Source of the DNA: a virus
Virus record (IMG/VR): IMGVR_UViG_3300010883_000057
Span: 1 to 47,240 of that record
Reading direction: 5' to 3' (one strand)
Length of the DNA: 47,240 nucleotides
Part shown: positions 11,149-16,287 of the stretch, in pieces
How the letters are laid out: each line of letters starts with the position of its first letter
Numbering within the stretch: position 1 is the stretch's first letter
Position numbers and translations under genes: made by a program
The notes under the pieces: generated by a model
Seen by the model: the letters and a program-made list of their open reading frames with translations, nothing else
Told to the model about the DNA's origin: nothing
Databases searched by the model: none

Positions 11149-11673
11149 ATGCCAGGTTTTAATGTTGTTGGTGCTGGTGGTGACGCCAGAGGACCATCGA
11201 ATACCATAGAAGTCAGACGTAAACACAGATGGCTGTTTGAAACGTTGGGGCCGGTTAGTCCTGCAGCGTTATTAATTTTGCAATCTGCTTCCAGACCGAG
11301 TTTTAAATTTGACGAACCAGAAATGCATCATAACCAGGAAGTTGCTTACTTCGCTGGTAAGCAGTCCTGGGACCCAATCACGTTGGTTTGGTATGATTCA
11401 GAGCAGAATCCAGATGTTTCCCAAGAAGTTTATAACTGGTTGGGAAGTGTTGTTGAACCGAGCAATGTTAATGTTAGCGCTCCTTCTGCTTATAAACAAG
11501 ACGCGCAATTGTCAGTTATGGATGGCGCAGGCGCTGCGAACGAGCAATGGAATATGTATGGCTGTTGGCCGTCTGCTGTGAACTTTCAAGAACTAGATTA
11601 CAGTTCTACTGATCTTTTAACTTGTGAAGCAACATTAAGATATGACAGGGCAATTCGTTTCGCTGCATCTTAA
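11149..11673 (+). CDS. 19: Major tail tube protein, T4 gp19-like
   Basis: The 174-residue protein has the gp19-type pattern: N-terminal MPGFNVVG, a basic strand ending RKHRWLFETLGPV, then RPSFKFDEPEMHHNQEV, SWDPITLVWYD and the C-terminal block YGCWPSAVNFQELDYSS followed by TCEATLRYDRA. T4 gp19 is 163 residues and stacks as hexamers inside the sheath. It lies directly after the sheath gene with a GGAGGG ribosome site and is followed by a strong terminator. This makes it the best candidate for the main, most abundant tube subunit among three paralogues. Confidence 0.9.
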   Translation: MPGFNVVGAGGDARGPSNTIEVRRKHRWLFETLGPVSPAALLILQSASRPSFKFDEPEMHHNQEVAYFAGKQSWDPITLVWYDSEQNPDVSQEVYNWLGSVVEPSNVNVSAPSAYKQDAQLSVMDGAGAANEQWNMYGCWPSAVNFQELDYSSTDLLTCEATLRYDRAIRFAAS

Positions 11674-11697
11674 TGTTTTTTGATTTGCATGATCTAA

Positions 11698-11724
11698 GGG
11701 GGGCCTGTTTAGGCCCCCCGTTTT
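11698..11724 (+). terminator. Rho-independent terminator after the first tube gene
   Basis: A nine-base-pair stem (GGGGGGCCT / AGGCCCCCC) closes a GTTT loop and is followed by G and TTTT. It begins 24 bases after the tube gene stop and 14 bases before the next ATG. The stem is very GC rich in AT-rich surroundings. It would end or reduce transcription after the abundant sheath and tube genes, giving less of the downstream paralogues. Confidence 0.85.
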
Positions 11725-11737
11725 ATAGGTAGAGATA

Positions 11738-12268
11738 ATGCCAGGATTTTTAATAGGTGGTTTCGGAGATCCAGCAAGAAATCCGCCCAATACTGTTGAA
11801 ACTGGTAGAAGACACAGATATTTGTTGACATCATTAGATCCGCTTAAAAATGTGTTAATATATGCCCATAAGGTAACAAGGCCAACTTTTGAAGTAGATG
11901 TCATTACAGCGCATAGTGGTCAAGATCTAATTTACAGGCCAGGGAAACATAAGTGGAATCCGATAGAAATGACCATATATGATGTGGTTTTGGAAGAACA
12001 AAATGGTACGGCATCTGCTATTTATGATTGGTGGCGGAATAGCATGATCGATGTGTCTAATTCAAAACAATTTAAGCCTGCCCAGTATAGAAAAACTTGT
12101 TCTTTAGAAATGCTGGACGGTTCAGATAATTCGCTTTGGTTGTATCAGCTGTATGGTTGTTGGCCGTCTAAAGTATCACCATCAGATCTTCAATATTCTG
12201 AAACTGCTATTGCCGATATCACCATAACACTACAGGTAGATAGGGTTGTTGAGAGTCAACCTTCTTAA
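11738..12268 (+). CDS. Tail tube paralogue (second copy)
   Basis: This 176-residue protein repeats the layout of the preceding tube protein: MPGF start, ETGRRHRYLLTSLDPL, KVTRPTFEVDVITAH, KWNPIEMTIYDV and the end block YGCWPSKVSPSDLQYSETA. Identity to copy one is limited but spread over the whole length, indicating old duplication. It may be a minor tube ring near the baseplate or neck; in T4 the tube-initiating proteins gp54 and gp48 also share the tube fold. It sits downstream of the terminator and is therefore probably made in lower amount. Confidence 0.85.
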   Translation: MPGFLIGGFGDPARNPPNTVETGRRHRYLLTSLDPLKNVLIYAHKVTRPTFEVDVITAHSGQDLIYRPGKHKWNPIEMTIYDVVLEEQNGTASAIYDWWRNSMIDVSNSKQFKPAQYRKTCSLEMLDGSDNSLWLYQLYGCWPSKVSPSDLQYSETAIADITITLQVDRVVESQPS

Positions 12269-12282
12269 AGAAAGCAAAATAA

Positions 12283-12825
12283 ATGCCAGGATTTATGGTT
12301 GATGCCGAAGGAGGAACGGGAATTGCACCGGCGTCGGAAAGTACTGAATATTATTATACATATACGTGGGAAATAGAACAAATTGTTGGCGATTTCGTTT
12401 CAGGTCAGCGGTCTCATTTGATAAATGTCAAAGAAATGTCTTTGCCAGCATTTACAACTACCAAAGAAACAATAATGGGCGCTTCTTTGGAATATAAATT
12501 TGCCAAATCTGTAAATTGGGATGATGTAAAAATCACATGGTATGATACTGGGGGAATGCTTGAAACTATTAAACAATGGAGAAAGACGATATGGGACCAA
12601 GAATATGGTATTGCCGCTGTTGATACTTATAAGCAAGAATCTATATTAAGCACACATTTGCCAGATTATACCGCACTTAATAGATGGGTCTTAATGAATA
12701 GTTGGCCTTCGATGATAAAGCATGGTGATTTAACATATACTAGTAGTGATATTAAAATTGTAGAAGTGACTTTGACATATGATTGGGCTGTAGAAGAGCC
12801 TGGTCCCGTAATTGGGATACGCTAA
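12283..12825 (+). CDS. Tail tube paralogue (third copy)
   Basis: The 180-residue protein starts MPGFMVDAEGG and has the same later blocks as the two upstream copies: LPAFTTTKE, VNWDDVKITWYDTGG, and a C-terminal NSWPSMIKHGDLTYTSSD followed by EVTLTYDWA. It is the most divergent: a Tyr-rich strand (YYYTYTWE) replaces the usual basic strand. It is 14 bases after copy two. A baseplate-proximal or terminal ring role is inferred. The other possibility is a specialised gp54-like initiator. Confidence 0.8.
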   Translation: MPGFMVDAEGGTGIAPASESTEYYYTYTWEIEQIVGDFVSGQRSHLINVKEMSLPAFTTTKETIMGASLEYKFAKSVNWDDVKITWYDTGGMLETIKQWRKTIWDQEYGIAAVDTYKQESILSTHLPDYTALNRWVLMNSWPSMIKHGDLTYTSSDIKIVEVTLTYDWAVEEPGPVIGIR

Positions 12826-12955: not shown

Positions 12956-14056
12956 ATGCCTGATGCACAAAAACCGGAAGATCCGAAGCTTCAAAAGACA
13001 AATAAGTCCAAAGATGTTGAGGCATCACCGCAAGAAGAAGAATTAAATATTGATGGCCCAGATGTTGTGCCGCCAGCGTCATCGCCAAAATCTAAATCTA
13101 AATCGCAAGAAGTTGACCCTGCGATTAATGTTATGGATACAAAAGTCGCCGATTTGGGTGATATAAGTAGCCCAGGAGCAACCACTGAAGAATTTTTAAA
13201 TAATCTTCTTAATGTTCCTACTGACCAGTTGATTCCATGGGAAGTGTGCTCTCTTCCAAGTCGTGGTATGTATTATGATTGGTCCGATGGAAATGTTGAA
13301 GTGAGAGCGATGGGTCAAACTGCTGAAAAAATTCTTGCAACGCAAAGGCTTGCACAGACTGGGCAATCGATTGATTATTTGTTTAGGGAATGTTGTAGAT
13401 TTCCTGAAGGTTTTGACCCCACAGACTTATTGTTGGGCGATAGGATTTTTCTGCTTTATTATCTGCGTGGTATAACGCATGGTAATGAATATGAATTTGG
13501 TGTGACATGTCCTAACTGCGAAGCAATTACTACTCACATGTATGATTTAAATCTATTAGCCAGCACGATTACGTGGGCGGATACTGGTATCGGCACTGAG
13601 CCATTTAAAGTAACCTTGCCGTATCTGACTGAAGCTACTGGCAGAGATGTGTGGGTTAGTATACGATTTTTACGAGCATCTGATGCCAATTCGATGATTA
13701 CTAAGCGAAAAGCAGTTAAAAAGGCGACCGCAAGACCCGGTGCCGTTAGAAACAGAGTTGATCCACGTCAACAGCAACAACAAAATCAGGAAATCGACGA
13801 ATCAATAACTGATAACTTAGAAAATATTATCGTTAATGTGATGGGTGTTGACAACCCATTTACAACTAAATCATTCATAAGCAAGTTACACGCCACTGAC
13901 ACTGCTGCCATAAGAGAATGGTTGAGCAATAATACCCCCGGCATCGATACAACTGTGGCCCTTGAATGTACTGATTGCAACAACGATTTCACCATCGAGT
14001 TGCCTATTTCGGAATCCTTTTTTCGTCCAGCGAGGCACGAACGAATACGAACGTGA
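12956..14056 (+). CDS. Baseplate hub / assembly protein, T4 gp26-like
   Basis: The 366-residue protein has a charged, Pro/Ser/Lys-rich leader (1-85) and then a region typical of the T4 gp26-type baseplate family: LPSRGMYYDWSDGNVEVRAM, YLFRECCRF, DLLLGDRIFLLYYLRGITHG and the metal-binding CPNC (about 183-186) matched by CTDC near the C-terminus (about 338-341). gp26 acts in hub assembly in T4. The 3' end is notable: at 14018-14024 the codons read TTT TTT C, and a second ORF in the +1 frame runs on to 14285, while the zero-frame stop comes only 10 codons later (14054-14056). A frameshifted longer form is therefore likely. The gene could also be viewed as a tail-assembly chaperone. Confidence 0.65.
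   Translation: MPDAQKPEDPKLQKTNKSKDVEASPQEEELNIDGPDVVPPASSPKSKSKSQEVDPAINVMDTKVADLGDISSPGATTEEFLNNLLNVPTDQLIPWEVCSLPSRGMYYDWSDGNVEVRAMGQTAEKILATQRLAQTGQSIDYLFRECCRFPEGFDPTDLLLGDRIFLLYYLRGITHGNEYEFGVTCPNCEAITTHMYDLNLLASTITWADTGIGTEPFKVTLPYLTEATGRDVWVSIRFLRASDANSMITKRKAVKKATARPGAVRNRVDPRQQQQQNQEIDESITDNLENIIVNVMGVDNPFTTKSFISKLHATDTAAIREWLSNNTPGIDTTVALECTDCNNDFTIELPISESFFRPARHERIRT
14018..14024 (+). other. Candidate +1 ribosomal frameshift site
   Basis: In the gp26-like reading frame the heptamer is TTT TTT C followed by GT. A ribosome slipping forward one base would re-pair the Phe tRNA on TTC and continue GTC CAG CGA in the frame that is open to 14285. The downstream frame has no in-frame stop across the site. 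The downstream ORF's own ATG (14070) lacks a visible ribosome site. The mechanism is inferred. Confidence 0.5.
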
Positions 14057-14069
14057 ATATCTTCAGATC

Positions 14070-14285
14070 ATGGAACAACAGTTCCAACTTAAGCATCATG
14101 GCAAACTAAGCCTATTTGAACAGAATAATATGACGGCTGAAGACCGCGCATGGTTTATTAAGAGATTAGACAAAGAATTTAAGGATCGGCAAGACCAGGA
14201 GAGAGGATCATCGCCGTCTACGCCTAGTAAACCTTCTACGCCTAGAATGCCGTCTATGCCTTCTATGCCATCAATGCGGCGTTAA
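14070..14285 (+). CDS. Short ORF, likely C-terminal extension of gp26-like protein
   Basis: From ATG 14070 the product is 71 residues: a start of the form MEQQFQLKHHGKLSLFEQNNM, then TAEDRAWFIKRLDKEFKDR and a Pro/Ser/Met repeat tail (PSTPSKPSTPRMPSMPSMP). The middle, with a TxExRxWFIKRLxKEF helix, looks like the short proteins that follow tail chaperones and are commonly joined to them by frameshift. Its frame is open back past 14018, so it may be read only as a fusion with the gp26-like protein (residues up to about 356, then this part, about 442 in total). Independent initiation is the alternative. Confidence 0.6.
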   Translation: MEQQFQLKHHGKLSLFEQNNMTAEDRAWFIKRLDKEFKDRQDQERGSSPSTPSKPSTPRMPSMPSMPSMRR

Positions 14286-14324: not shown

Positions 14325-15179
14325 ATGCCAATAACTGCCAGTTCTTTTCCACGAATATCTGCACGACGTGGTAAAATTGTAGATCTTAATGCCACATTTC
14401 GTAGAAGTGGTGTGTTGACAGATCCGTATGCCATAAGATACGTTGAAATATACAAAACTTCAGTCGTACCACATAATTTGTTGGTTACTATACCAATGGT
14501 GGGTGCTGATAATGCTCTTTATCCATCTCCGCTCTATCGTGCGGATTCCGCTGGCGTAGCAATTCCGCCCGGTGGAACTGCCACTCCGATGACCGGCGAA
14601 TACCATTTATTATACAGTGTTCCCGAAACATTTGATGTGCCAGATGTTTATTATGATGTTTGGTATTATTTTGCAGACAACCCATGCGTGGGAGATTCAG
14701 GTACGGCTGCCGCCACTGATTGTGATATTGATGCTGTTGTTTATGACAGCGAATTACTTTCTACTTGCCACAGATTTTGGTTATATCCAGATGGGTGGTT
14801 TGTTGACGATGGTTTACAGTCGATTAGGTTTGGTTTTGAACCGTTAGACCAGAAATTCCATGATCCTGAAATTAGGCCACTTGAAGTTGGTTTAATGCCA
14901 CTACCACTCTATGACTATAATTTTAATTTAGTTAATCCCATCATTCCGTATTTGACGCCAACTATTACTATTAAAACAATGCGGGAAGAAAAATTGGTTG
15001 ATGACGCTGCCATGACGATAGGGTTGCGTCAAGGGTCGTATAGGTCTAATCCTTGGATCATGAGATACAATTTAGACACAAGCAAGTATCTAAAAGGGAC
15101 TTATAAATACTATATAACATTAACTCTTCCAGATGGGTCTACTAGAGTTAGTAAGTCATTTATCTTCACGATTGCATAA
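14325..15179 (+). CDS. Unknown virion protein
   Basis: The 284-residue protein has a good ribosome site (GAGGAG) and a beta-rich sequence: a start FPRISARRGKIVDLNATFRR, then strands with many Tyr and Pro (YHLLYSVPETF, VYYDVWYYFAD), two Cys pairs in the middle and an Ig-like end (YKYYITLTLPDGSTRVSKSF). I do not recognise the family. The tail position between the gp26-like gene and hub genes suggests a tail or baseplate surface component. Confidence 0.75.
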   Translation: MPITASSFPRISARRGKIVDLNATFRRSGVLTDPYAIRYVEIYKTSVVPHNLLVTIPMVGADNALYPSPLYRADSAGVAIPPGGTATPMTGEYHLLYSVPETFDVPDVYYDVWYYFADNPCVGDSGTAAATDCDIDAVVYDSELLSTCHRFWLYPDGWFVDDGLQSIRFGFEPLDQKFHDPEIRPLEVGLMPLPLYDYNFNLVNPIIPYLTPTITIKTMREEKLVDDAAMTIGLRQGSYRSNPWIMRYNLDTSKYLKGTYKYYITLTLPDGSTRVSKSFIFTIA

Positions 15180-15234: not shown

Positions 15235-16287
15235 ATGCGTTATAAAAAACTTTCTAACAAAAAAATAGTTGCTTGGATAGAGCAAAATTTTGAATATAAA
15301 ACTCGTCGAGATGGCGAAGAATATCTAATAAACAATCCCTTTGACGGCGATACTGGGTTTCATTTTAATATTAGCCCAGATAAGGGTATTTGCAATGACT
15401 GGAGAGGCAATGAGTGGGTTGGCATAAACCCTAAAACTAGTAAGCGTAATAAGTGTTCATTTCTCAAATTTGTGCAATTATATTTAAATTGCTCTTATAC
15501 CAATGCCCTTCGGGCTGTTCTTGGAGCCACGGAAGACATTGGAAGTTATTTGAGGCCCAGAAGCCAAGACGATGCCATTAAGAGCGAAGAAGAGCCTTCT
15601 GTATATCTTCCTGATGGTTCGGAAAGGCTTGTTGATAGTAAAGATGCCAAAGTGGCCAAAATAATTGTTAATTGGTTGGCTCAGAGAGGTTTATCTGAAG
15701 AAGACATAAAATTATATGATATACATCATCGTGGCTTGGAGGTGGTCTGGCCGTATTATGAGTACGATGAATTGGTGTATTGGCAAAGCAGGTCTAGAAT
15801 CAATAAAATGTTTATGTTCCCAGATTCTAATGTTGGGGTATCAAAGGGCGATTTTTTATATGGTTTTGATTTGATTGAACCAGCTAGCTATTTGACGATA
15901 ACTGAAGCAATATTTGATGCTCACACTTTGGGTGATCAAACAATGGCATCTGGTGGCGCAGCCCTTACCAAGAATCAGATTAAAAAGATAAGATTGCTAG
16001 GTCCAAAAGATGGAGTAGTATTAGCCCCAGATAATGATAAGGCAGGTGTTAAGAGCATTTTTAGTAATTATAAACTGCTCAATAGCAACAATTTAAAGGT
16101 ATATTATTCATTGCCGCCTGAAATAGAATTCACCAAGAATGGTGAAAGGGGCGTGACTAAAGATTGGAATGAGCTGCATACTCATGTCGGAATGAATCAT
16201 CGTGAGATTTTGCAGTCGTTCGAGAACAATATTAAAGCTATTAATCAAAGAGAACTTGTTAGATTGCGGTCTAAGGTTTCTCGTTGA
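15235..16287 (+). CDS. DNA primase, TOPRIM (DnaG/gp61-like)
   Basis: The 350-residue protein has a TOPRIM domain: the acidic residue at the end of a strand in YLTITEAIFDAHTL (Glu 224), SGGAALTKNQI after it and VVLAPDNDKAG (Asp 266, 268) matching the DxD metal site. The N-terminal 100 residues (FHFNISPDKGICNDW, then FLKFVQLYL) resemble the fold of primase zinc-binding domains though only few Cys remain (53, 74, 86). It would make RNA primers for lagging-strand synthesis. It is a replication gene lying inside the tail gene block. A short gap with no strong ribosome site precedes the ATG. No helicase domain is fused. Confidence 0.8.
   Translation: MRYKKLSNKKIVAWIEQNFEYKTRRDGEEYLINNPFDGDTGFHFNISPDKGICNDWRGNEWVGINPKTSKRNKCSFLKFVQLYLNCSYTNALRAVLGATEDIGSYLRPRSQDDAIKSEEEPSVYLPDGSERLVDSKDAKVAKIIVNWLAQRGLSEEDIKLYDIHHRGLEVVWPYYEYDELVYWQSRSRINKMFMFPDSNVGVSKGDFLYGFDLIEPASYLTITEAIFDAHTLGDQTMASGGAALTKNQIKKIRLLGPKDGVVLAPDNDKAGVKSIFSNYKLLNSNNLKVYYSLPPEIEFTKNGERGVTKDWNELHTHVGMNHREILQSFENNIKAINQRELVRLRSKVSR

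Follow-up and report, generated by a model that had tools for sequence, protein, structure and literature searches.

Programmed frameshifts in tail assembly chaperones are already known, and so are +1 cases in phage tail genes; frameshifting at UUU followed by a pyrimidine in E. coli was reportedly the subject of a 1997 paper in Nucleic Acids Research. The frameshift of tail chaperones is described in a major review as conserved "except T4" (PMC5009743). The T4 proteins gp26 and gp51 are listed as chaperones of hub assembly; gp51 is essential, of unknown function, and not part of the final particle (PMC3004832). A +1 shift at UUU_CGN has been shown for influenza PA-X and is predicted in other eukaryotic viruses (PMC3498833). 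A search of the open literature found no report that prokaryotic viruses use a UUU_CGN +1 shift, that gp26 is frameshifted, or that genes 26 and 51 stand in a short–long relation. The locus described here is a tail-assembly gene of a T4-like virus; judged from comparative sequence analysis, its single message is almost certainly translated into two proteins by a +1 slip at UUU_CGN; its notable part is the link to T4.

The window, which is the whole stretch of 47,240 nucleotides that was analysed (IMG/VR record IMGVR_UViG_3300010883_000057), carries a gp26-like gene at positions 12956–14056, on the plus strand, as are the slip site, the frame-0 stop, the extension, the ATG at 14070, the tail-tube genes and the next gene downstream described below; its frame 0 encodes a short product of 366 aa with the C-terminus ...ESFFRPARHERIRT. 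This open reading frame matches PF12322 (T4_baseplate, gp26; E 2.2e-9; 37.8 bits against a curated cut-off of 24.5) and PHROG 150 (E 3.2e-11), and the PF12322 match runs to residue 357, at the motif FFRP. Around the site, frame 0 reads TCC TTT TTT CGT CCA, with TTT TTT at 14018–14023; the slip site TTT TTT CGT CC (14018–14028) is invariant in relatives and forms a peak of synonymous conservation, and the frame-0 stop TGA (14054–14056) follows 30 nt past the slip codon. The P-site TTT at 14021–14023 can re-pair to TTC at 14022–14024, and the A-site codon is CGT at 14024–14026. In the +1 frame the site reads TTC GTC CAG; this frame is open across the site to the TAA at 14283–14285, giving an extension of 87 codons plus stop (14022–14285) that codes for ...MTAEDRAWFIKRLDKEF... 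and a fused +1 translation of 442 aa. The first-pass annotation had placed TTT TTT C at 14018–14024, the stop of the gp26-like frame at 14056 and the end of the +1 frame at 14285, and these coordinates hold; it also took the open +1 frame to code for a helix, and the structural model described below has helices. The extension ends in a Ser/Pro/Met-rich repeat (PSMPSMPSM; 14201–14282) whose length varies among relatives.

Three tail-tube paralogues (11149–12825; PHROG 4542 and 45) lie directly upstream of the gp26-like gene; a sheath gene of 983 aa precedes these tandem paralogues. The next gene downstream (14325–15179), preceded by GAGGAG, is conserved, with homologues after the extension in L002–L007. 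The order in the window is thus tube genes before gp26 and, after it, a gene without assigned function and then a primase-like gene; no tape measure was identified directly after the gp26-like gene in the window. The primase-like gene (15235–16287) stands within the tail gene cluster, two genes past gp26. Phages LIS04 and immuto have gp26 in the position of G/GT, preceded by sheath and tube and followed by the tape measure.

Relatives of the locus were collected by IMG/VR searches of up to 80 loci per scan, and none were found in GTDB genome contigs; 53 +1 loci, clustered at 80% protein identity, gave 36 clusters. The junction is the same in all intact relatives within the window's group: frame 0 ends in FFRP or FFRY followed by a few residues that vary, and a conserved domain of the form LMEQQFxLKxxGxLSLFEQxxMTAEDRxWW is encoded in the +1 frame. 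In the P site, 35 of the 36 clusters have TTT and the remaining one has CTT; in the A site, 34 have CGN (32 of them CGC or CGT) and 2 have TGG. Elsewhere in these genes Phe is encoded by TTT in 62% and Arg by CGN in 53% of cases, and the chance of such codon uniformity, with shared ancestry ignored, is about 4e-8 for TTT and 5e-10 for CGN. Codon-by-codon synonymous conservation across 28 clusters reaches its maximum at the slip codon (1.00 observed vs 0.60 expected, z 15.9) and is also high at the neighbouring codons; no upstream block of comparable conservation was found in these 28 clusters. In several clusters just 8–14 nt separate the end of a +1-frame stop from the end of the slip codon, and in many clusters frame 0 ends 12–18 nt past the slip codon; the shift window common to the clusters is about 20 nt long, and the slip site falls within it in each case. 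The locus thus has what is expected of a programmed +1 frameshift of the UUU_C type: a conserved slip codon that can re-pair in +1, confined to a narrow window between a +1-frame stop and the frame-0 stop. The ratio dN/dS of the +1 domain is 0.03–0.55 where computable, and a third-position excess is found in +1 codons 2–16, ahead of the first ATG; these substitution patterns point to purifying selection on the +1 domain, which evolves as a protein. The forward slip of tRNA-Phe from TTT to TTC, which the first-pass annotation had put forward as fusing the two frames, is supported by this comparative evidence.

Several variants of the site were observed. CTT TGG C occurs in L061 (3720–3744) and L114 (2700–2729) and is near the CTT TGA C of bacterial prfB; TTT TGG stands at the slip site in Mel-JY01 and L057. 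In LIS04 (L112/L134) the sequence near the gp26 stop is TTT TTT AGT and the extension lies in the +1 frame, with an A after the slip codon; this TTT AGT, standing where TTT CNN would be expected, counts against the preferred reading and is the only clear departure from the rule that a pyrimidine follows UUU.

No stimulatory RNA structure was detected (mean z −0.56 over 36 clusters; −0.73 for the window), and strongly negative z values were confined to L002, L024 and L041 among these clusters. An internal Shine-Dalgarno sequence of the prfB kind was likewise not found; a Shine-Dalgarno-like 4-mer occurs in 11 of 36 clusters, and a conserved block is absent. Since neither kind of stimulator was found, the efficiency of the shift may be low.

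The extension could instead be made as a separate small protein, from an internal ATG by reinitiation past the frame-0 stop. An ATG 46 nt past the slip site is present in 18 of the 36 +1 clusters, the candidate separate start in the window being the +1-frame ATG at 14070–14072; in the cyanophages with a −1 arrangement, an ATG lies no more than 5 nt from where the stop begins, and GenBank calls the open reading frame gp51. The +46 ATG is not conserved, however, and no start codon lies near the extension in L047, L060, L061 and L069. A Shine-Dalgarno-like 4-mer stands ahead of it in 1 of the 18 clusters, and, as read from the window sequence, none precedes either +1-frame ATG (14070, 14129), so that the lack of a good ribosome site at the short frame's own ATG, as the first-pass annotation had described it, is borne out. 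A start at the +46 ATG, which in the window falls inside helix 1, would cut this helix of the modelled domain. The codons upstream of the ATG are under +1-frame constraint, and in the slip codons the nucleotides themselves are conserved. Comparison with related phages, proposed at the outset as one way to tell fused from separate products, found the slippery run conserved and no conserved separate ribosome site. Separate initiation of the extension is unlikely and the ATG at 14070 is judged unused; the reading of the extension as an independent small protein is given very little weight, although reinitiation may occur in the branch close to P-SSM2 and KVP40.

The direction of the frame change, +1 in the preferred reading, was also weighed against a −2 ribosomal shift and against RNA polymerase slippage on the T run, either of which could occur at the six consecutive T of most sites. 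In 4 of 36 clusters, however, the site reads TTC TTT CGN; a −2 step would there put tRNA-Phe on TCT, and polymerase slippage is unlikely on a T run of three. The slip codon is followed by C or T in 36 of 36 clusters, which is needed by +1 re-pairing but not by a −2 shift. Because of this pyrimidine and of the TTC TTT CGN sites, the direction is taken as +1 rather than −2, and these two routes together appear slightly less probable still than separate initiation. Sequencing error is excluded, since another public contig, L001, codes for exactly this protein; a dead, frameshifted gene is at odds with a feature that is kept under purifying selection in isolated phages as well as in dozens of contigs of independent origin. 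Nothing was found in favour of an error or a dead gene, and this explanation retains next to no probability.

Separate structural models were made of the body and of the extension, each from its plain translation. The model of the extension (pLDDT 82) has helices at residues 6–25, 31–35 and 39–62, followed by the Ser/Pro/Met-rich tail. Searches by sequence of Pfam and PDB with the extension gave nothing credible, and its fold search gave no significant match; the second in rank was a T4-like baseplate protein (KPV15, probability 0.87). Profile comparison by hhalign of the +1 extensions with the −1 extensions plus the C-termini of T4 and RB49 gp51 yielded a probability of 96.8 and E 2.2e-10, and PHROG 150 joins gp51 and the cyanophage extension. 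On this profile evidence, the +1 extension is homologous to the C-terminal domain of gp51, the long form of the T4 type.

In annotated phages it is often the −1 frame that encodes the homologue of this domain. The sequence T TTT TTC G occurs just before the frame-0 stop, or a little further upstream, in P-SSM2, S-PM2, Aeromonas 65, phiW-14, KVP40 and RaK2, and T TTT TTC with a stop one codon later was found in all 82 of 82 loci close to P-SSM2 or KVP40, the loci of cyanophage type having been gathered by single-protein queries; L071–L075 and L079–L082 also combine T TTT TTC with a −1 extension. The run TTTTTTCG is read by the body as TTT TTT CGN in the +1 group and as T TTT TTC GNN in most −1 phages. 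A distant relative, L010 (2130–2520), has a long −1 extension without T TTT TTC and a possible A_AAG site (CCA AAG AAG). Three open reading frames annotated as gp51 baseplate hub assembly catalyst (NC_006883, 7217–7390; NC_006820, 151190–151363; NC_005083, 186612–186779) match no more of T4 gp51 than its C-terminal extension, and in LIS04 and Aeromonas 65 the extension was missed or cut short in annotation. The annotators of KVP40 had already seen the likeness of the small open reading frame to 40 aa at the gp51 C-terminus. The annotation can be corrected accordingly: what is called gp51 in cyanophages and KVP40 is merely the end of a probable fusion.

Both T4 proteins match PF12322 (gp26, E 8.8e-64; gp51, E 3.9e-52); of the 282 positions of PHROG 150, gp51 is covered to 280 and gp26 only to 235. 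T4 gp26 ends in KEFFELL, and the other frames there hold no extension; in gp51 the body runs on in frame into the extension domain. Two PF12322 genes are present in T4 and in RB49 and one in 32 other records of 68–595 kb, some of which are near-copies of each other and some possibly incomplete; Mel-JY01 and immuto do not reach the level of the Pfam model and have one gene each by tblastn. In the body tree, the four T4 and RB49 genes are grouped (96/91) beside −1 phages of the Straboviridae and Kyanoviridae; the +1 label changes at least three times on well-supported branches, although several branches are long and details unsure. The feature is wider than the first-pass annotation had supposed: to judge from sequence comparison, frame change is general in the PF12322 family, with −1 in other branches and, apparently, two genes in T4 in place of the shift. 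In all, it is probable, if well short of certain, that gp26/gp51 is the tail assembly chaperone of the T4 group, with a family-wide frameshift that has switched direction between +1 (UUU_CGN) and −1 (U_UUU_UUC) at one run and has been replaced in the T4 lineage by the duplication into genes 26 and 51.

In the mechanism proposed, most ribosomes would terminate at the TGA to yield the short form (gp26). In a minority, peptidyl-tRNA-Phe on UUU, with CGU waiting in the A site, would slip one base forward onto UUC and read on to 14285, giving the long form, which would consist of the body of the short form and an added helical domain. Short and long forms may work together like gpG and gpGT of lambda, the common part handling the tape measure or hub and the extension recruiting other parts. 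T4 would make the same two proteins from the paralogous genes 26 (short) and 51 (long), and −1 slippage on U_UUU_UUC would give ribosomes access to the homologous domain in KVP40, the cyanophages and others. It is very probable that the virus gene encodes two forms of a tail assembly chaperone in this manner, the long one arising by a +1 slip at UUU_CGN. The shift could be real and its product nevertheless a structural part of the baseplate hub rather than a chaperone pair of the G/GT kind; gp26 is annotated as a baseplate hub protein and has genetic support in the hub (PMC3004832), and in the PDB fold search with the body model the HK97 tail assembly chaperone 2ob9, although ranked first, was non-significant (E 0.87, probability 0.28). 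The listing of both T4 proteins as hub assembly chaperones and the absence of gp51 from the particle (PMC3004832) speak against a structural role, as do the gene order of LIS04 and immuto and the short/long pair, which agree with G/GT; such a role is therefore considered rather unlikely. The kinship with frameshifted tail-chaperone pairs that the first-pass annotation had suspected gains support from the comparative evidence, and gp26/gp51 would be the T4-group counterpart of the lambda G/GT chaperone, given the chaperone listing, the gene order and the two-gene precedent of phage 0305phi8-36. The short/long relation also suggests a role for the poorly understood gene 51 of T4.

If this is true, prokaryotic viruses too make wide use of the UUU_CGN +1 shift, for which the cases listed so far are from eukaryotic viruses; the prokaryotic viruses would offer a natural set of UUU_CGN +1 sites with sister genes shifting −1 at the same run, and such sister genes would be useful for studying what sets the direction of the slip.

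Among described systems, the gpG/gpGT pair of lambda and its P2-type counterparts (PMC5009743) resemble the present locus in pairing a short protein with a frameshift-extended long one from a single gene, here by comparative sequence, and annotated relatives of the virus encode the pair between tail tube and tape measure; in contrast, the lambda and P2-type shifts are −1, and the lambda body family is unrelated by sequence to that of the virus, which is PF12322 and zinc-ribbon-like. The +1 shift of influenza A PA-X at UCC_UUU_CGU (PMC3498833) shares P-site slippage of the UUU_C type and CGN in the A site, although it belongs to an unrelated gene of a eukaryotic RNA virus; UCC also precedes UUU UUU CGU in the window, but is not conserved in the phage family. 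Recoding by +1 in tail genes of prokaryotic viruses is represented by Listeria phage and SPP1 and, probably, HSTV-2 (PMC3498833, PMC5009743); in Listeria phage the recoded gene is the Tsh tail gene, and the available portions of these sources report no UUU_CGN site for Listeria phage, SPP1 or HSTV-2. In Bacillus phage 0305phi8-36, a G/GT chaperone is made from two paralogous genes, gp143 and gp144, without a frameshift (PMC2147016), as is proposed here for genes 26 and 51; it belongs to another phage lineage, and the available part of that paper states no relation to gp26 or gp51. The T4 pair itself shares PF12322 with the virus gene, with gp51 consisting of body and extension domain and gp26 of the body only; it differs in being encoded by two separate genes, with a junction that requires no frameshift.
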